DNA of 28,054 bases from a virus. A program made the position numbers and the translations under genes. The notes under the pieces were generated by a model, which saw only the letters and a list, made by a program, of their open reading frames with translations, did no database searches and was not told the origin of the DNA. The first letter of the stretch is position 1. Each line of letters begins with the position of its first letter. Location: positions 1-28,054 of the IMG/VR virus record IMGVR_UViG_3300019752_000017; one strand, written 5' to 3'. Positions 1-6,903 of this stretch are shown in pieces.

Positions 1-1
1 A

Positions 2-157
2 AGTTTAAACAAAAATAAAACACCAACTATCGAGGAGTTTACAAATGATTTATTTGTAGAAGTTACAGTAAATAGTTACCTTAGAAAAAATGATTATAAG
101 ATTTATGGCTTAAGAGAAATTACCGATGAATATAACGAAAGATTTGAAAAGGTTTAA
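2..157 (+). CDS. Hypothetical protein, 5' end cut off by the window edge
   Basis: An open frame runs from the first bases to a TAA at 155-157 and gives 51 residues ending NERFEKV. No start is visible, so the gene begins upstream. Composition is charged and hydrophilic with no membrane segment, and I recognise no family. It has the same orientation and codon use as the small genes that follow, and is followed at 158-195 by the right half of an intergenic element (TTAACGAATAG, then GCAACCAAAGTTAAATT) like the one before the gene at 611. It is probably another member of the accessory gene chain. Confidence 0.55.
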   Translation, partial: SLNKNKTPTIEEFTNDLFVEVTVNSYLRKNDYKIYGLREITDEYNERFEKV

Positions 158-210
158 ATTACGGATTAACGAATAGAGCAACCAAAGTTAAATTAATTAA
201 AAAATAAATT

Positions 211-486
211 ATGAAAATAAGCGAAGAACAGATTTTTGTTTTAACAAACCCATTTTTTTGGATATGGGCAATTATAGTTTTAATACTACACTTAATTAAA
301 AAAGCATTAGATGTTACTGGTATATACGATTGGTATTATGTATTGTTTAGATTTAAAAGAATGAGTAAAAGAAGCAAAGATGAAATGGTTTTTTTAATGG
401 ATAAAAGAGCAATAAAGTTGTTATGGTTAAAACGAAAAGCATGGGAATATGCAACTAAACTTATTAAAGAAGAAAACAACCTTTAA
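211..486 (+). CDS. Small membrane protein of unknown function
   Basis: The product is 91 residues with one hydrophobic segment near residues 13-30 (NPFFWIWAIIVLILHLI) followed by a strongly basic stretch rich in K and R. This suggests a single-pass inner-membrane protein with a cytoplasmic basic tail. The start has the A/T-rich leader usual here (AAATAAATTATG). The gene is bracketed by an inverted repeat: GCAACCAAAG at 178-187 upstream and TTTTGGTTGC at 487-496 downstream, overlapping the end of the gene region. I do not recognise the family. It could be a superinfection-exclusion or host-modifying protein, but nothing in the sequence shows this. Confidence 0.6.
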   Translation: MKISEEQIFVLTNPFFWIWAIIVLILHLIKKALDVTGIYDWYYVLFRFKRMSKRSKDEMVFLMDKRAIKLLWLKRKAWEYATKLIKEENNL

Positions 487-501
487 TTTTGGTTGCGCAT
501 A

Positions 502-568
502 GTTGGCATTAGTACAGCCACGCAACGTTGTACGGACTGAGAATACATCGGCTGTATTAAGTGCCAAC
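502..568 (+). repeat. Intergenic hairpin element 1 (30-nt loop)
   Basis: The left arm GTTGGCATTAGTACAGCC (502-519) pairs with the right arm GGCTGTATTAAGTGCCAAC (550-568), with one extra base and one mismatch. The loop is 30 nt (520-549), starts ACG and ends ATACATC. An outer pairing of GGTTG (491-495) with CAACC (578-582) is also possible. The same design, with different inner base pairs, recurs at 4792-4860 and, with an insertion, at 3389-3467. It could be a structured RNA, a recombination site or an mRNA processing/stability hairpin. There is no T-run, so it is not a classical terminator. Confidence 0.75.
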
Positions 569-610
569 TGAATAGTACAACCAAAGTTAAATTTTAAAAA
601 ATAACAAATT

Positions 611-811
611 ATGAGTAGAGAAACAGACATACAAAAATTATGCAAACAAGTGCTTGAGGAATGTTATCCGAATGAGAATTATAACAACGGAGAAACATCT
701 TGCCCTTTTTGTGCTGAAAGTACATATAAAAATAATGCAGGTATGCAAGATATAAAACACGATGCTGACTGTGCATATTTAATAGCAAAAGATTTAAGCA
801 CTGGCTTTTAA
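611..811 (+). CDS. Small zinc-ribbon protein
   Basis: The product is 66 residues. The motif C-P-F-C (residues 31-34) is followed by H-x3-C (H50, C54) and an aliphatic tail leading to YLIAKDLSTGF. This CxxC...HxxxC layout is seen in many short phage zinc-binding proteins and makes a single structural zinc site likely. The substrate or partner is unknown. The gene is flanked by TACAACCAAAG (576-586) and TTTTGGTTGTGC (813-824), again an inverted pair, and the C/G variant seen around the gene at 211 is here A/T on both sides. Confidence 0.65.
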   Translation: MSRETDIQKLCKQVLEECYPNENYNNGETSCPFCAESTYKNNAGMQDIKHDADCAYLIAKDLSTGF

Positions 812-976
812 TTTTGGTTGTGCATAGTTATTGCAAGTGGTTGAGGTGTTAACGCTTTAACAGTAAATAAAGCCTTGACCATTGCATTAAAAACAAATAT
901 TGTAAATACATAAAGACAACAACTATTTGTTATAACGAATTACAATAATAAATGTTAAATATAAAATACAATAATT
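812..976 (+). other. Intergenic element between small genes
   Basis: There is no gene here. The stretch begins TTTTGGTTGTGCATAGTTAT and ends with TTATAACGAATTAC, so its borders follow the element pattern of this region (CATAGTT at the left, AACGAATTA at the right). Inside, GGTTGAGG (839-846) can pair with CCTTGACC (872-879) through G-U pairs, and ATTGC/GCATT copies lie beside them. The structure is weaker than the three 30-nt-loop hairpins. Confidence 0.4.
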
Positions 977-1189
977 ATGATAAAAGCAAAATTAAACTAT
1001 ACAGGAAACGAAAAAACGATTATAGAAGAAGTAAAAATACCACAAGTTCCAAATATTAATGACGGTTTTAATTTTAGATTTAGAAAAATGGATGCTAATT
1101 TTAATGCATTTACGATTGAAAGTATTGACTATTGGTTTAAAGATGGAGTTTTTGAGGGGGTTGATCTTTATTTAAAAGATGAGGTTTAA
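977..1189 (+). CDS. Hypothetical protein
   Basis: The product is 70 residues, with no membrane segment, no cysteine motif and a mixed beta-rich pattern with many aromatic residues (FNFRFRK, YWF, VDLYL). The start follows a TAATTATG leader. I recognise no family. The following element (1190-1311) is a near copy of the one after the gene at 2059. The compact acidic C-terminus and small size fit a host-interaction or inhibitor protein, but that is a guess from location only. Confidence 0.5.
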   Translation: MIKAKLNYTGNEKTIIEEVKIPQVPNINDGFNFRFRKMDANFNAFTIESIDYWFKDGVFEGVDLYLKDEV

Positions 1190-1311
1190 TATTTTTTATT
1201 GATAGTTAACCGATGGTTTTGAGGGATTTAAAACAATTACCGAGAGTTAAGAACAAAGTTTAAAACACGTTAAACGTTGAGGTTATTACACCGACAAAAA
1301 TAACGGTTAAC
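1190..1311 (+). repeat. Intergenic element, copy A of a ~120-bp direct repeat
   Basis: This is a near copy of 2302-2425. Both start with a T-rich tract, then ATTGATAGTTAACCGATGG, share ACACGTTAAACG and GAGGTTATTACACC, and end AAAATAACGGTTAAC. Terminal inverted repeats AGTTAACCG (1204-1212) and CGGTTAAC (1304-1311) bound each copy. The middle parts differ by short insertions and substitutions. Each copy lies directly after a small gene. From 1312 to 1379 I see only A/T-rich leader sequence, with GCGGTGGC at about 1342 and GTACACAAGACAATATG at the start codon. Confidence 0.7.
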
Positions 1312-1379
1312 GTACACTTATAACATTAGAAATTTAAAAAAGCGGTGGCTATTTGCGTTAGCAATGTACACAAGACAAT

Positions 1380-1922
1380 ATGAACCAAGTACAACAATTT
1401 TTTGAATACATACTTAATGCTGTTAAAATATTTATTATAGTTCAGCCTTGGCAAACAGGTATAAGGGTTAGAAATGGAAATAAAATTAAAAAATTAAATA
1501 AAGGTATTTATTTTAGGATGCCTTATTTTGATAGTGTTTACATACAAGAATCAAGACTTAGAGTTGCTGAAATTGCAATGCAAACATTAACATCTAAAGA
1601 TTTGAAAACGATAACTCTAAACTGCTCTTTTGGTTATTCCATAAAAGATATTGAAAAACTATATAATACACTATACCATCCAGAAAGCACATTGAAAAAT
1701 ATGGTAAATAGCGAAATAGCAAGTTTTGTATTTGATAAAAATTTAACTGAAATAACACCAATAGATCTTGAAAATTTTGTACTTAATAAACTAAAAGAAA
1801 TGGATTATGGGTTGAATTTTGAATATTTTAAAATAATCAATTTTGCAGTTGTTAGAACATATAGATTAATACAGGATCAGAGTTGGACAGGCGAAGGACT
1901 AAGTATGGATGATAAGAAATAA
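1380..1922 (+). CDS. SPFH/band-7 (stomatin/prohibitin-like) domain protein
   Basis: The product is 180 residues. An N-terminal hydrophobic stretch (residues ~8-22, FEYILNAVKIFIIVQPW) resembles a membrane anchor or hairpin. It is followed by the SPFH core: GIRVRNG, L-x-K-G-I-Y-F-R-M-P-Y-F-D-S-V, a V-A-E-I-x-M-Q-T-L-T-S-K-D segment, then C-S-F-G-Y-S-I and a helix N-M-V-N-S-E-I-A-S-F-V. This order and spacing are typical of band-7 proteins, which oligomerise on the inner membrane and scaffold proteases or transporters. It is shorter than cellular stomatins and lacks their long coiled-coil tail. Here it is part of the accessory chain. A role in modifying the host membrane or in phage-phage exclusion would fit but is inference. 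Confidence 0.7.
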   Translation: MNQVQQFFEYILNAVKIFIIVQPWQTGIRVRNGNKIKKLNKGIYFRMPYFDSVYIQESRLRVAEIAMQTLTSKDLKTITLNCSFGYSIKDIEKLYNTLYHPESTLKNMVNSEIASFVFDKNLTEITPIDLENFVLNKLKEMDYGLNFEYFKIINFAVVRTYRLIQDQSWTGEGLSMDDKK

Positions 1923-1973
1923 TACGTGTAGATGGATTTTAAATTTTTACTGTTATGAGGAGTTATTTTTAGT

Positions 1974-2024
1974 GCTTGCGTACCGAAACAGATATACGTA
2001 AGCCCATTAATCCGCAAGGATTAA
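1974..2024 (+). other. Two adjacent stem-loops in an intergenic region
   Basis: GCTTGCGTA (1974-1982) pairs with TACGTAAGC (1995-2003) with one G-U pair. Directly after, TTAATCC (2007-2013) pairs perfectly with GGATTAA (2018-2024) around a GCAA loop, a GNRA tetraloop. The two helices lie 3 nt apart and could stack. No T-run follows. The rest of the gap (1923-2058) is A/T-rich with no ORF. It is a candidate structured 3' end or small RNA. Confidence 0.55.
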
Positions 2025-2058
2025 TTATAACTTTAATTAGATAAAAAATGTAAATATT

Positions 2059-2298
2059 ATGGATGAATTAGATAAAATTTTTGAAAATAAAGAAGAATTA
2101 AGAAACACTAAAGAAGTGCAAGAGTTAATAAATTATTGCCAAAAAGTATTTAAGAAAAACTTAAGAATTGGTAAAATGTATGAGGACTTTCACGACAGAA
2201 CTTTAGATAAAATAATGTATAGTGAAATTATTTTAAAAAATGGTAATGACACAAAAACAGTGTTAGAGGCAATAATGCAGGATATAAACGATATGTAG
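2059..2298 (+). CDS. Hypothetical small helical protein
   Basis: The product is 79 residues, highly charged, and predicted mostly helical from its pattern (DELDKIFENKEELRN; VQELINYCQKVFKKNL; AIMQDINDM). There is one cysteine and no membrane segment. I recognise no family. Upstream GATAAAAAATGTAAA and downstream TTTATATTTTTTATT are near inverted complements, in line with the matched flanks of neighbouring genes, though both are A/T-rich and could match by chance. Confidence 0.5.
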   Translation: MDELDKIFENKEELRNTKEVQELINYCQKVFKKNLRIGKMYEDFHDRTLDKIMYSEIILKNGNDTKTVLEAIMQDINDM

Positions 2299-2301
2299 TT
2301 T

Positions 2302-2425
2302 TATATTTTTTATTGATAGTTAACCGATGGTTTTGAGGGGTTTAAAACAGATACCGATGGTAAAGACAACAGTAACAAACACGTTAAACGCTGAGGTTAT
2401 TACACCAACAAAAATAACGGTTAAC
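2302..2425 (+). repeat. Intergenic element, copy B of a ~120-bp direct repeat
   Basis: This is the second copy of the element at 1190-1311, bounded by AGTTAACCG (2318-2326) and CGGTTAAC (2418-2425). It differs from copy A mainly in the centre, while ends and inner blocks are conserved. Two related elements behind two unrelated genes suggest the element, not the gene, is the repeated unit. From 2426 to 2462 there is only an A/T-rich leader. Confidence 0.7.
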
Positions 2426-2462
2426 TACATTAGAATATGAACTTTTAAAAAATATTTAAAAT

Positions 2463-2666
2463 ATGAAAACAGACTTAATAAATTATCTAAAAACAAAGCA
2501 TATATATGATGTTTACAGCTTATGGGGTGAAGCTAAAACTTATTATAAAAACAAGTGTATTGAAATGGGTGGAGGCTATGCAAGTTGGGGTAAAGACATA
2601 AGTGTAACATTGAATATATGCGGTAAATTAGAAAGGTTTAAAGTAAGTGTAGACGAATGTAAATAA
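2463..2666 (+). CDS. Hypothetical protein
   Basis: The product is 67 residues with a central glycine/aromatic patch (CIEMGGGYASWGKDISV) and a beta-like C-terminal half. No known motif is seen. Flanks 5' ATATGAACTTTTAAAAAA (2436-2453) and 3' TTTTTTAATTGTTTATAT (2668-2685) are inverted complements at about 15 of 18 positions, which marks gene and flanks as one unit. Function is unknown. Confidence 0.5.
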   Translation: MKTDLINYLKTKHIYDVYSLWGEAKTYYKNKCIEMGGGYASWGKDISVTLNICGKLERFKVSVDECK

Positions 2667-2690
2667 TTTTTTAATTGTTTATATGCAATA

Positions 2691-2804
2691 GTTGGTTGTG
2701 GGCTTTTTGAAACCTTTGCGCTTAAATAATTTATAAGACAAACAAGTGAATAGTATTAAAACCATTAGCGTAAACTGATAAAATAAACAAAACTCACTCC
2801 CAAC
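2691..2804 (+). repeat. Large intergenic inverted-repeat element
   Basis: The stretch starts GTTGGttGTG (2691-2700) and ends CACtcCCAAC (2795-2804), so GTTGG/CCAAC and GTG/CAC pair at the borders. Inside, TTTGCGCTTAA (2716-2726) can pair with TTAGCGTAAA. It continues into CGAATTAG, the same right border as the hairpin at 3389-3467 (CCAACGAATTAG). It is longer and more branched than the 30-nt-loop hairpins but looks like the same class. Confidence 0.5.
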
Positions 2805-2812
2805 GAATTAGT

Positions 2813-2866
2813 AAATGGTTTGTATTAATTTAAAGAAAGTTACTCTTAGATTTGTATAAACCATTT
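2813..2866 (+). repeat. Inverted repeat with no gene inside (possible empty cassette)
   Basis: AAATGGTTT (2813-2821) and AAACCATTT (2858-2866) are perfect 9-bp inverted complements separated by only 36 nt. The left arm follows GAATTAG as gene flanks do elsewhere here. Other genes in this chain sit between such matched flanks, so this may be a flank pair whose gene was lost. Alternatively it is a stem over the promoter at 2851-2882, which overlaps its right arm. Confidence 0.4.
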
Positions 2867-2882
2867 TTTATTACTACATTTG
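2851..2882 (+). promoter_or_regulatory. Bacteroidota-type promoter for the rightward small genes
   Basis: TTTG (2851-2854), exactly 20 nt, then TACATTTG (2875-2882) is a perfect match to the Bacteroidota housekeeping consensus (-33 TTTG, -7 TAnnTTTG, 19-21 nt apart). Transcription would start near 2888-2890 and read the gene at 2945 and those beyond. It indicates that this block is read by host RNA polymerase, that is, early or constitutively. Confidence 0.65.
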
Positions 2883-2944
2883 ATTATTATTAACAAAGTG
2901 ATATAAACTATTTGCATAGTTATACGCTTTTAAACCACTAAATT

Positions 2945-3088
2945 ATGCCTACATACTATTATTTAATTACCAGCACTTTTTTAGCAGAACCAATAAGAAC
3001 AAGTGACCGATATAAAAAAAACTTATTAGAAAGTATATTTGAAAAGAACTCTATAAAATATGATATAGAGAAAATATCACTGGTTTAA
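2945..3088 (+). CDS. Hypothetical small protein
   Basis: A 47-residue ORF begins MPTYYYLITSTFL and ends KISLV. It starts with ATG after an AAATT leader and lies 56 nt downstream of the expected start of the 2851-2882 promoter. There is no membrane helix long enough to span and no known motif. It is flanked by perfect 9-bp inverted repeats AGTTATACG (2918-2926) and CGTATAACT (3092-3100), the clearest matched flank in the region. Function is unknown. Confidence 0.5.
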   Translation: MPTYYYLITSTFLAEPIRTSDRYKKNLLESIFEKNSIKYDIEKISLV

Positions 3089-3139
3089 TTACGTATAACT
3101 TAATAGTATAACGGAATAACGAATAAATACAAAATAATT

Positions 3140-3370
3140 ATGGAAGATTACACTTGGGTTACAACAGTTGCACTTGCGACAAACGAAGATACAATGAATG
3201 ACTTTATAGACAACCACCTTTACGAACATTGTGGAGAAAGCTACGAAGTTGTTTATGAGGATGGAACTTATGTAGAAATACAAGACGATAACGGAACTTT
3301 ATATGGTGTGCACGCAAGTGGAAATGGTGATTTTTGTAGCCACAGAGTTAGTTTTGAAGAACTTACTTAA
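3140..3370 (+). CDS. Hypothetical acidic protein
   Basis: The product is 76 residues, strongly acidic (many D/E, few K/R), with a beta-like pattern (YEVVYEDGTYVEIQDDNGTLYGV). H and C residues (HLYEHC, FCSH) could bind a metal but form no standard motif. Acidic, DNA-mimic-like composition is common in phage inhibitors of host enzymes, but that is inference. Flanks GTATAACGGAATAAC (3106-3120) and GTTATACCGTTATAC (3371-3385) are inverted complements at 14 of 15 positions. Confidence 0.55.
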   Translation: MEDYTWVTTVALATNEDTMNDFIDNHLYEHCGESYEVVYEDGTYVEIQDDNGTLYGVHASGNGDFCSHRVSFEELT

Positions 3371-3388
3371 GTTATACCGTTATACATA

Positions 3389-3467
3389 GTTGGTTGCCAA
3401 CGGCTTGTAGTGCCTTTTGCGTGTGAGAAAACATAAAAATATATATCAAAAAGGCATTACAACCAAC
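3389..3467 (+). repeat. Intergenic hairpin element 2 (30-nt loop)
   Basis: GTAGTGCCTTTT (3407-3418) pairs with AAAAGGCATTAC (3449-3460) with one G-U or mismatch pair, around a 30-nt loop (3419-3448) that starts GCG and ends ATATATCA. The outer pair is GTTGG (3389-3393) with CCAAC (3463-3467); a 13-nt insertion on the left side carries its own CCAAC. The right border continues CGAATTAG. It has the same loop length and loop ends as the elements at 502-568 and 4792-4860. Confidence 0.7.
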
Positions 3468-3517
3468 GAATTAGCTATGCTTAGTTTAAAAGAATATTAA
3501 CATTAAAATTTATAAAA

Positions 3518-3790
3518 ATGAATAAAGAATTAGAAACATTATTAGATAAAGAATATCAAGACAGAATGTCACAAGGCGAGATAATAAATTTAGACCAAGC
3601 TTATGGATATAAGTTGGGTAGTACTGATGCTTTTAAATTGAGTATAGGTGTAGTTAGCCGAAGTGTTTGGATGGTGCAAAACCATAACACTTTATTAATT
3701 CACGGACTTTTTAGTACACAACAAAAAGCTATAAACTTTGCAGGTACAAGCGTAAATATGGCTATAACAAACATTACCGTTGATGGGTAA
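3518..3790 (+). CDS. Hypothetical protein
   Basis: The product is 90 residues. An N-terminal helical, charged part (NKELETLLDKEYQDRMSQG) leads into a beta-rich part with hydrophobic strands (LSIGVVSRSVWMV, TLLIHGLFST). No catalytic motif or signal peptide is seen. Flanks TGCTTAGT upstream (3479-3486) and ACTAAGCC downstream (3798-3805) are inverted. A further perfect stem TAAGCC/GGCTTA (3800-3805, 3815-3820) follows the stop. Function is unknown. Confidence 0.5.
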   Translation: MNKELETLLDKEYQDRMSQGEIINLDQAYGYKLGSTDAFKLSIGVVSRSVWMVQNHNTLLIHGLFSTQQKAINFAGTSVNMAITNITVDG

Positions 3791-3896
3791 TTAGATTACT
3801 AAGCCAAATATTACGGCTTAACTGTAGCAGTATATGATTAGCGAAATAAATTTAGAGAATGCAAATTGGCGGTAGCCAAAACATACACGAAATATT

Positions 3897-4745
3897 ATGA
3901 ATGTAATAAGTTTATTTAATGGAATGGGAACGTTAAGACAAGCGTTTTCAGATATGAATATTAAGGTTGATAAATACTATTCAAGTGAGATTAAACCTTA
4001 TGCAATAGAACTACAACAACACCATTTTCCAGATGTTATACAAGTTGGAGATATTAATAATTGGAAGGAATGGGATATTGATTGGAAAACTATTGATTTT
4101 ATTGGTAGTGGTTCACCTTGTCAAGATTTAAGTGCGGCTGGTAAACGTGCAGGAATTAACGGAAGTAGAAGTAGTTTATTTTTTACCTTTGTTGAAATAT
4201 TAGAACACGTCAAAAAACTAAACCCAAATGTAAAATTTTTACAAGAAAATGTTGGAAGTGCAAACGTAAAAGACGTTGGAATAATGAGTAGGGCATTAGG
4301 TGTTTACCCTGTTAGGATTGACAGTAGTTTAGTTACTGCGCAATTACGTGATAGATACTATTGGACTAACATAAGAACTAAAAATACGATGTTTGACGTT
4401 GTTGTTGATATACCACAACCAAAAGATAAAAAAATACTCTTAAACGATATATTGACAAGTGGTAAGAGTGATAGAGAAAAACATACTTGTTTAAATACTG
4501 GTAGTGGAACAGGTGGTACTCAACGTTATTTAATACACAGGAATAATACAACAGGAATGTTAACACTAATAGATGATTATGGTAAATTCAGAACTTGTAA
4601 TACTATTGAAATGTGTAGATTACAAGGTTTTGAAGATGATTATTGTGATATATTAACTCAAAGAAAATCAGGTAGTTTATTGGGTGACGGATGGACTTTA
4701 CCAATAATTATACATATTTTGAGTTTTTGGGAATGGGATAAGTAA
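3897..4745 (+). CDS. C5-cytosine DNA methyltransferase
   Basis: The product is 282 residues and transfers a methyl group from S-adenosylmethionine to C5 of cytosine in DNA. The motifs are in order: motif I LFNGMGT (residues 6-12), a DNMT3-like S-S-E-I (29-32), motif IV GSPCQ with catalytic C75, motif VI ENV (117-119), motif VIII QLRDR (149-153), motif IX RLQGF (241-245) and motif X LLGDGW (261-266). The target-recognition part between VIII and IX is short (about 85 residues), as in small phage enzymes. No restriction endonuclease is beside it, so it is an orphan enzyme, probably protecting phage DNA from host restriction. It is the longest gene of the accessory chain and sits between hairpin elements. 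Confidence 0.9.
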   Translation: MNVISLFNGMGTLRQAFSDMNIKVDKYYSSEIKPYAIELQQHHFPDVIQVGDINNWKEWDIDWKTIDFIGSGSPCQDLSAAGKRAGINGSRSSLFFTFVEILEHVKKLNPNVKFLQENVGSANVKDVGIMSRALGVYPVRIDSSLVTAQLRDRYYWTNIRTKNTMFDVVVDIPQPKDKKILLNDILTSGKSDREKHTCLNTGSGTGGTQRYLIHRNNTTGMLTLIDDYGKFRTCNTIEMCRLQGFEDDYCDILTQRKSGSLLGDGWTLPIIIHILSFWEWDK

Positions 4746-4791
4746 TTAAAAAAGCGCAAAGGCAAAATTTATTGCGTTAATTATATACGCT

Positions 4792-4860
4792 GTTGGCATT
4801 AGTACATTTTACGTCTGAAAAAAGGGTACAGCATATATCAAAAATGTATTAAGTGCCAAC
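4792..4860 (+). repeat. Intergenic hairpin element 3 (30-nt loop)
   Basis: The left arm GTTGGCATTAGTACATTTT (4792-4810) pairs with AAAATGTATTAAGTGCCAAC (4841-4860). The 30-nt loop (4811-4840) starts ACG and ends ATATATCA. Compared with element 1 the outer ten bases are identical, while the inner pairs differ on both arms (AGCC/GGCT there, ATTTT/AAAAT here), a compensatory change that supports a selected fold. Followed by GGTTTGTGTATG. Confidence 0.8.
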
Positions 4861-4913
4861 GGTTTGTGTATGCCACGTTGCGTAATTAATAACAAAATTA
4901 AATAGATAAAAAA

Positions 4914-5090
4914 ATGAATTGGATTAAGAGAATATTTGGCAAAAAAGTAGAAACCAAGCAATGTGATATACACGTTGTTGGTTGCCAAAGGGAACAGTTA
5001 AAAAGAAATAAGACTTGCTTTATGTGTGACAAGGAAAAACCTAACGATGGACACACTTGCTGTGAAGATTGCGGTGGAGTTTCTTTTTAA
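4914..5090 (+). CDS. Small cysteine-rich, zinc-binding-type protein
   Basis: A 58-residue ORF has a basic N-terminus (MNWIKRIFGKKVE) and a cysteine-rich C-terminal half: C-F-M-C, then H-T-C-C-E-D-C. The spacing CxxC...CCxxC is that of a small zinc ribbon or knuckle. The amphipathic basic start might associate with membrane. It begins with ATG after GATAAAAAA. I recognise no family. Confidence 0.5.
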   Translation: MNWIKRIFGKKVETKQCDIHVVGCQREQLKRNKTCFMCDKEKPNDGHTCCEDCGGVSF

Positions 5091-5134
5091 TTGCCACCAA
5101 CTACTAATAACATTAATTCAAAAAATTGAACAAC

Positions 5135-5819: not shown

Positions 5820-6767
5820 ATGAGCGTTAACCATTTAAGTAAAAAGAATAGACAATTAATTATTGACCAATATTCAAGTAATAAGTCAAGAAAGAAAGTT
5901 CAAAAAGAATTAAGTAAATTTTTAAATGTAACAACAAGACAAGTTAGAAACTATGCACGTGAATTAGGATTAGGAGTAAACAAGAAAGATATTGTAAATG
6001 ATAAAGTAATGGTTTACGATATTGAAACAAGTAGAATAAAAGCAGATATTTGGTGGTCAGGCAAGCAATATATTAGACACGAACAATTAAGAACAGAGCC
6101 ACAAATTATATCAATAGCGTGGAAGTGGGTAGGTAATGATGAAGTGCATTATTTAACATGGGATAAAAATCATTCAGATAAAAAGATGGTAGGTGAGTTT
6201 TTAAAAGAATATAATAAAGCATCTATGATTATTGGTCAAAACAACAATTCATTTGATAATAAATGGATTAATACAAGAGCTGCTAAACATAATTTTCACG
6301 TTGATAGATATGTTAAATCTTTTGATATTTATAGAATGGCTAAAAGATACTTTAGATTACCAAGTTATTCAATGGCTTATATGGCTAATTACTTTGGATT
6401 AACATTAAAGCAATCACATGAAGGATTACATATGTGGGATATGATAGAGTACGGTAATAAAGACGAACAGAAAGAGTATTTACAAAAGATGGTAGATTAT
6501 AATAAAGGCGATATTGTAACTACTGAAGAGCTTTATATGACTTTAAAACCATACTTTGGTAGTGTTACTAATAATGCAGTTAAGCAAGGTTTACCTAAAT
6601 GGGCTTGTCCTGTTAGTGGTTCAACAGATATTAAATTGTTAAAAACTATATTTACAGAACAAGGAACAGTACAAAGAATATTATTTTGCGAAGAGAGTAA
6701 GCACCAATATAAAGTAAGTAATAAAACTTATATGGATTTTTTACAAAGAAATATGTTAAATAATTAG
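5820..6767 (+). CDS. DEDD-type 3'-5' exonuclease (RNase H-like) with N-terminal HTH
   Basis: The product is 315 residues. Residues ~5-52 look like a helix-turn-helix (QKELSKFLNVTTRQVRNYARELG). The exonuclease fold follows: ExoI VYDIET (D67, E69), ExoII GQNNNSFDNKW (N141-D146) and ExoIII YNKGD (Y227, D231), matching the DEDDy pattern of DNA polymerase B or YprB-type exonucleases. No polymerase domain follows. The C-terminus (residues 263-300) looks like a zinc ribbon that has lost ligands: CPVS and CEES where C-x2-C pairs would be expected. It is the last gene of the plus-strand block, 8 nt after the spanin candidate. Likely role: phage DNA or RNA processing or repair. Confidence 0.75.
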   Translation: MSVNHLSKKNRQLIIDQYSSNKSRKKVQKELSKFLNVTTRQVRNYARELGLGVNKKDIVNDKVMVYDIETSRIKADIWWSGKQYIRHEQLRTEPQIISIAWKWVGNDEVHYLTWDKNHSDKKMVGEFLKEYNKASMIIGQNNNSFDNKWINTRAAKHNFHVDRYVKSFDIYRMAKRYFRLPSYSMAYMANYFGLTLKQSHEGLHMWDMIEYGNKDEQKEYLQKMVDYNKGDIVTTEELYMTLKPYFGSVTNNAVKQGLPKWACPVSGSTDIKLLKTIFTEQGTVQRILFCEESKHQYKVSNKTYMDFLQRNMLNN

Positions 6768-6811
6768 GTAGTTTAAATAATTATAACTACTTTAGCATTG
6801 TTAAACTTTTA

Positions 6812-6903
6812 AACGGTTTGTCAGCACCGTTGATCCGACTGGCTTAGTGCAACAACTTTTTTTCTCATTATAAATTAAGTTGGTTTATTTCAAATTGCAC
6901 TAA
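6812..6903. other. Structured convergent intergenic region
   Basis: There is no ORF between 6768 and 7013. AACGGT (6812-6817) pairs with ACCGTT (6826-6831) around 8 nt. Then TTAGTGCAACAACTT (6844-6858) pairs with AAGTTG (6877-6882) and, after a 12-nt bulge, TTGCACTAA (6895-6903), a 15-bp interrupted helix. The region is less A/T-rich than its surroundings. It could be a small RNA, a transcript 3' end or an attachment site. Nothing else marks it. Confidence 0.5.

Follow-up and report, generated by a model that had tools for sequence, protein, structure and literature searches.

Three intergenic hairpins in a viral genome as probable gene-free cassettes of an integron-like array

What are the three look-alike hairpins that stand between small genes at one end of a viral genome, and where does the paired change in their arms come from? 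The DNA analyzed here (the window, positions 1 to 28,054 of virus record IMGVR_UViG_3300019752_000017) is that of a 28-kb virus with a long run of minus-strand genes and, within positions 1-5100, many small genes of unknown function. An earlier note, made from the sequence alone, described three hairpins between genes, each with a 30-nt loop and with outer arms GTTGG/CCAAC, took the paired changes of their inner arms for the mark of a selected structure, and proposed that they are RNAs, recombination sites folded as single strands, or mRNA 3' ends. We conclude that each hairpin is probably a minute cassette without a gene, part of an integron-like array in a Flavobacteriaceae phage; it would form a short cassette body between two recombination sites and not a full site in itself.

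The hairpins are present as described (Table 1), their loops, 30 nt each, being ACGCAACGTTGTACGGACTGAGAATACATC, GCGTGTGAGAAAACATAAAAATATATATCA and ACGTCTGAAAAAAGGGTACAGCATATATCA, and their outer arms GTTGG/CCAAC, with an additional CCAACGGCTTG in the left arm of hairpin 2. Folded as single-stranded DNA and compared with dinucleotide shuffles, hairpins 1, 2 and 3 reach z-scores of -3.8, -2.9 and -3.5, with 0, 2 and 1 of 200 shuffles, respectively, folding as well. The last seven bases of hairpin 3 are at the same time the first seven of an attC-like site at 4854-4983, a palindrome with the R''-L''-variable terminal structure (VTS)-L'-R' order and the AAC and GTT triplets by which attC sites are recognized. 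A covariance model built from 32 attC-like sites, among which AAC and GTT are invariant (model R1), matches this site over its entire length (positions 1-132 of 132; 69.6 bits, E-values 8.5e-12 and 1.4e-11). AAC and GTT are in place, but the window boxes TGCCAAC and GTTGGCA, like many host boxes, deviate from the RYYY/RRRY part of the consensus RYYYAAC/GTTRRRY.

Sites of this kind are organized into chromosomal arrays in Flavobacteriaceae. Scanning 84,980 species genomes for CAACGNNTTTGTATATGANTAG gave 19 loci, two in Bacteroidetes metagenome-assembled genomes and the rest under Flavobacteriaceae names; most matches lie inside palindromes of ~131 bp, which separate single genes in the arrays that we read. 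R1 detected between 14 and 149 sites in each of 13 genomes (at most the best 150 candidates scored), and was positive in 237 of 299 Flavobacteriaceae genomes (E 1e-6) as against 6 of 61 genomes across Bacteroidota (stricter E 1e-8), a contrast that is approximate given the unequal cut-offs. In Lacinutrix mariniflava, for example, at least 37 sites occupy a single strand of one contig from 21.9 to 72.3 kb beside a recombinase gene, which is the array of gene cassettes with attC sites expected of a complete integron. Host cassettes follow a box rule, in which the starting box (GTTNNNN...) is the reverse complement of the ending box: adjacent host cassettes show box pairing over 8-10 contiguous nt in 18 of 21 cases, often continuing into a G/A step (G.T wobble), whereas unrelated pairs reach 7 nt or more in 3.6%. 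For phage cassettes the count is 39 of 116, compared to 3.9% of unrelated pairs. The rule is integron logic, because after excision the two boxes of a cassette make up the outer stem of its own attC; the window hairpin arms carry the same TAG/TAA G/A step as the chromosomal cassette ends. Two L. mariniflava cassettes (locus L058) bear a second palindromic repeat, AACTCCTGGCGGCTATGAGTTG...CGTAGCCGCCAGGAGTT, beside their boxes, and the box rule is broken there. Relative to the R1 sites, host cassette genes are oriented in the opposite direction (L058, L062-L080) and phage genes along them (the window, L003).

Applied to the window, the rule would make the left arm, GTTGG..., the R' box that opens a cassette and the right arm, ...CCAAC, the R'' box that closes it. 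On excision of the cassette as a circle, R' and R'' would become the outer boxes of its own folded attC, which would be why the two arms pair. The paired change seen by the earlier note is real, but its main source would be this R'/R'' rule, as in chromosomal gene cassettes. The attC-like sites between the hairpins would be either intact, as at 4854-4983, or degenerate, or extended by an internal gene; when single-stranded, such a site would fold, a host-encoded tyrosine recombinase would cut beside the GTT/AAC triplet, and the cassettes so cut could be lost, gained or joined to new neighbors, in which the window copies may still take part.

Hairpin copies in other phages are likewise joined to attC-like sites. 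A second covariance model (R2), built from the three window hairpins as the earlier note had suggested, retrieved four further copies in phage contigs, L229 2912-2977 (43.8 bits), L129 6692-6757 (37.6 bits), L145 3986-4050 (31.4 bits) and the weaker L097 8005-8086 (25.0 bits), with loops of 30 nt in L129 and L229, 29 nt in L145 and about 34 nt in L097. In L129 and L229 the hairpin's right arm doubles as the opening box of an R1 site (6751-6881 and 2971-3046, respectively); the L097 copy, a relative of hairpin 2, starts on the final box of such a site, flush with the attC; and a 67-nt hairpin cassette without an open reading frame (ORF) is flanked by attC on both sides at L029 5071-5137. Over the seven copies the inner arms do change together, with pairing in 42 of 42 cells and two to four pair types per position; when just distinct rows are counted, pairing is seen in 36 of 36 cells versus a shuffled mean of 22.7, a result matched by 259 of 100,000 shuffles. 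Since the copies are few and mutually related, this covariation counts as support, not proof. The identification of the arms as cassette ends is well supported for hairpin 3, while for hairpins 1 and 2 it is probable, from the common arms and from their relatives. As to an impression that similar hairpins occur in Bacteroidota chromosomes, it was borne out for the arms, which recur in the Flavobacteriaceae arrays, and not for the whole hairpin, which R2 did not find in the 13 host genomes (best E 0.11). Two loose loop patterns run against viral contigs gave, among the matches listed, mostly chance hits, with L229 alone being real, and the pattern GTTGGCATT-N-AAGTGCCAAC was discarded after yielding chance and unrelated matches.

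An unlikely alternative is that the hairpins represent structured RNAs or the 3' ends of mRNAs (terminators or processing signals) that came to lie between phage genes by chance. Significant folding, covarying arms, a conserved loop and an intergenic location on the coding strand are all what such elements would show, but no T tract follows the stem, the window contains no Rfam family above the gathering score (and no tRNA either), the copies in other phages are joined without a gap to attC boxes, and the box rule is common to ordinary gene cassettes. Of the three proposals in the earlier note, the recombination site is the one supported, the arms being R boxes of integron-like cassettes, and we rate the other two low. 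An RNA role can nonetheless be additional to the cassette role, as conservation of the loop lies outside the cassette-end explanation.

Comparison of related phages places gene gain and loss at the same boxes. The sole long match of window intergenic DNA among phage records is to Polaribacter phage P12002S (118 nt, window 4855-4972); it starts at the right arm of hairpin 3, and the intergenic regions of this phage hold repeated ...CCAACGTATTTGTATATGATTAG... blocks. P12002S and its sister phage P12002L are 97.6-99.7% identical over their long shared stretches and differ by whole genes in their cassette regions, where the alignment edges coincide with the boxes, at AACAACGG, GTGTT or AACGTT; such a strain comparison, with breakpoints sought at the arms, had been proposed at the outset. 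Could the repeats be mere short homologies and the cassette turnover ordinary homologous recombination of phages? We consider this improbable, to about the same degree as the RNA explanation. One P12002S/P12002L junction is a hybrid left half that fits site-specific or homologous exchange, and the attC-like cores, up to 93% identical, are similar enough for homology-based exchange, a point that weighs against site-specific recombination. The breakpoints argue the other way, falling at AAC or GTT and bordered on the outside by variable boxes, as do the recombinase and attI-like site at the host arrays, and complementary boxes within one cassette are not a product of homologous exchange. Transposon-like palindromes (of the miniature inverted-repeat transposable element or repetitive extragenic palindromic type) spread by a transposase would also be palindromic, repeated and intergenic, but unit ends that vary in sequence yet remain complementary to each other, and an array with attI and a tyrosine recombinase, make this origin very improbable.

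Which enzyme could act on these sites? Twelve of the 13 genomes encode a tyrosine recombinase that, over its best stretch, scores 96-127 bits against the integron-integrase model, and no canonical IntI at or above the TIGR02249 cut-off was found in the 13. With flanks included, R1 sites lie on the same stretch as the recombinase gene in 11 of these 12 genomes, the twelfth stopping at a contig edge. Six loci have a conserved sequence, TATATAACNCGTT or TATATACAATTGTT, 28-80 nt past the recombinase stop codon, with a box complementary to the end of the first cassette; by position and sequence, this is an attI-like site adjoining the recombinase, as an integron should have. The L. mariniflava locus (L068) deviates in that its recombinase is shorter and has the array on its 5' side. 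Across the recombinase alignment, the catalytic residues R, K, HxxR, H and Y are retained. The Winogradskyella recombinase aligns with XerA and IntI4, with ~43 residues missing at the IntI-specific insert: residues 178-245 of IntI4 (2a3v) stand opposite just 24 query residues, and the region is also absent from the aligned recombinases, so that the IntI-specific additional domain (I2 helix) of a complete integron is lacking. The best NCBIfam match is NF040815 (XerA type), at 215.7 bits against a cut-off of 220; unlike this nearest family, the array recombinase has an extra ~100-aa N-terminal domain and is associated with attI and a cassette array. A tblastn search with the 13 host recombinases found no member of the family among 105 viral sequences that total 1.09 Mb and are in many cases fragmentary, and the simplest inference is therefore that a host-encoded enzyme would act in trans, supplied from the host's chromosomal array.

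Sedentary chromosomal integrons of the Vibrio cholerae repeat (VCR) type are long one-gene arrays with ~130-bp palindromes, a tyrosine recombinase and attI at one end, and cassette-specific complementary R boxes. The Flavobacteriaceae arrays resemble them in each of these respects, but their recombinase is without the IntI-specific insert and is co-oriented with the cassette genes in most loci read, and their R-box pairing extends to about 10 nt with a recurrent wobble. Judged by sequence, then, assignment to integrons proper fails on the recombinase, and the arrays are integron-like in every other test made.

Within the window, complementarity between intergenic regions across a gene is higher for adjacent than for non-adjacent regions (mean 21.8 vs 18.1; permutation p 0.0047), and it is strongest at a C5-cytosine DNA methyltransferase gene, whose arms score highest among all region pairs (34), and at a Band 7 gene (Table 1). 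This indicates that the phage genes mostly lie between L'' and L', with the hairpins in the position of cassette bodies. The Band 7 gene encodes a phage SPFH/Band 7 domain protein (PF01145) and is flanked by a 23-nt inverted repeat pair.

Table 1. Hairpins, attC-like elements and associated genes in the window; cassette and site assignments are predicted
Feature	Positions	Strand	Description
Hairpin 1	502-568	+	Putative ORF-less cassette body; arms GTTGGCATTAGTACAGCC / GGCTGTATTAAGTGCCAAC; 30-nt loop
Hairpin 2	3389-3467	+	Putative ORF-less cassette body; arms GTTGGTTG..TAGTGCCTTTT / AAAAGGCATTACAACCAAC; 30-nt loop
Hairpin 3	4792-4860	+	Probable ORF-less cassette body; R' GTTGGCA 4792-4798, R'' TGCCAAC 4854-4860; 30-nt loop
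Full attC-like site	4854-4983	+	R'' TGCCAAC, L'' GTGTATG, VTS, L' ATATACAC, R' GTTGGTT
58-aa ORF	4914-5090	+	Starts inside attC VTS, reads through R'; GTT of R' is Val codon 22
Left half-site	3823-3853	+	Upstream of C5-methyltransferase; R''-like GGCTTAAC, L'' GTATATGATTAGCGAAATAAATTT; pairs with 4765-4791 across the gene
C5-cytosine DNA methyltransferase gene	3897-4745	+	PF00145, E 9.9e-26; between L'' (3826-3853) and L' (4765-4791)
Right half-site	4765-4791	+	L' AAATTTATTGCGTTAATTATATACGCT, immediately before R' of hairpin 3
Arm	3106-3120	+	GTATAACGGAATAAC; pairs with 3371-3385 across ORF 3140-3370
Arm	1317-1339	+	Pairs with 1937-1959 across Band 7 gene 1380-1922 (score 31)
GTTAACCG...CGGTTAAC element	1205-1311	+	Repeated at 2318-2426; fold not significant

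Several observations weigh against a cassette array in the window. The position of most window genes corresponds to the attC loop, which is short in chromosomal attC, the reverse of the chromosomal arrangement. R1 gives only one clear attC across the window and no recognizable intact attC beside hairpins 1 and 2, and a position-matrix scan for half-sites scored the window no better than shuffles. A cluster of attC sites lacking integron-integrases (CALIN) comprises at least two close attC sites and no integrase; the window has one clear attC and degenerate halves, and relatives such as phage contig L129 have more than ten attC. The recurrence among copies of the ACG loop start and of inner GAAAAA/GAGAAT stretches is without explanation from cassette logic, and the 30-nt loop and the inner arms are conserved beyond the needs of a cassette end, so the hairpin may have an additional role.

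Some attC-like sites lie inside coding sequence. A pattern scan brought in ~80 phage contigs, and R1 identified 232 sites in 81 sequences, 144 of them unique in the aligned set. At 59 phage sites an ORF that starts upstream of R' reads through, with the GTT as an in-frame codon in 48, in phase 2 in 10 and in phase 1 in one, and many of these ORFs encode ...EQLTLTD-V... at the crossover. In 11 ORF pairs a common N-terminus is followed by unrelated C-termini past the crossover Val, and one pair shows the reverse (same C-terminus, different N-terminus); DNA identity is 64-93% between AAC and GTT and about 0.2-0.5 outside in most pairs. Two pairs also have one flank in common, which marks exchange at one box only. 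The window ORF 4914-5090 is one of five grouped phage ORFs with an MNWIK...QC.IH-like start, and its N-terminus, MNWIKRIFGKKVETKQCDIHV, is found again in other phages, where unrelated C-termini follow it. Crossover at the in-frame GTT Val codon would retain the N-terminus and replace the C-terminus, and we regard it as an even call whether phages of Flavobacteriaceae swap C-termini in frame in this way, through attC-like sites within ORFs and catalyzed in trans by the I2-less host recombinase. Two points count against such exchange: the read-through attC are in part of common descent, so that the phase counts are not independent, and the N-terminal part shows a modest codon-position bias (23 third-position changes vs 16 and 12; 20 synonymous and 20 nonsynonymous codon changes), which makes translation of the read-through starts likely, not proven. 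Phage attC fall into length classes near 52-62, 91-97, 127-138 and 193-207 nt, the longest of which holds most in-phase ORFs. One class of phase-2 read-through ORFs (L059, L132, L152, L081) has hydrophobic, lipoprotein-like starts, e.g. MKNLRTKLSYTLYILLA...C, that span the crossover.

Sites of this family have been reported in a phage before: attC sites and CALINs were described in phages, including Polaribacter phage P12002L, and IntI1 was found to recombine attC2 of P12002L into attI1, with the expected GTT as the point of exchange (Qi et al., 2023; PMC9892861). The P12002L attC belongs to the same site family as the window, and both P12002L and P12002S match R1. In the text consulted, that paper is silent on hairpin cassettes, attC-crossing ORFs with in-frame swaps, P12002S/P12002L breakpoints and Flavobacteriaceae host arrays. 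In the same phylum, IntegronFinder 2.0 lists a single complete integron for Bacteroidetes, that of Salinibacter ruber, with only In0 named earlier (PMC9024848), and the taxon models for attC leave Bacteroidetes and Flavobacteria unmentioned (PMC8352920). A search of the open literature, with preprints and many subscription papers outside its scope, found no paper on in-frame exchange or fusion through attC. The attC of P12002L is thus prior art; for arrays across the family, a recombinase without the insert and in-frame exchange, the open papers searched gave no precedent. Integron arrays are scarcely described in Bacteroidetes, yet R1 sites occur in most Flavobacteriaceae genomes examined. 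The IntI-specific domain has been treated as a defining feature in an archaeal integron study and is held to have enabled recombination of folded single strands (PMC7790495); a recombinase without it would mean either that the domain is dispensable or that a second recombinase lineage has solved the same problem. The phage sites would provide a route of gene flow between phages and host arrays, and crossover within coding sequence, if true, a route to new in-frame phage proteins through cassette exchange.

Elsewhere in the window, an exonuclease gene at 5820 has counterparts at 20 phage loci, whose upstream regions have almost nothing in common with the window, a sign of turnover. Further folds ending in GTT...AAC occur in intergenic regions of positions 1-5100 (c, 827-939; d, 1205-1311; e; f, 2318-2426; g), among which d (z -1.0) and f (z -1.8) are not clearly above shuffles. 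A 133-nt direct repeat with 87% identity (1179-1311 and 2293-2425) ends in GTTAACCG...CGGTTAAC, and these repeats are possibly a second family of cassette bodies. Viral contigs L011, L012 and L015 share a distinct GTTGGCATTA...AAGTGCCAAC element with an inner hairpin of the GGGCAGATTTCTCTGCCC type, flanked by TTTTG and CAATTAGAGC.

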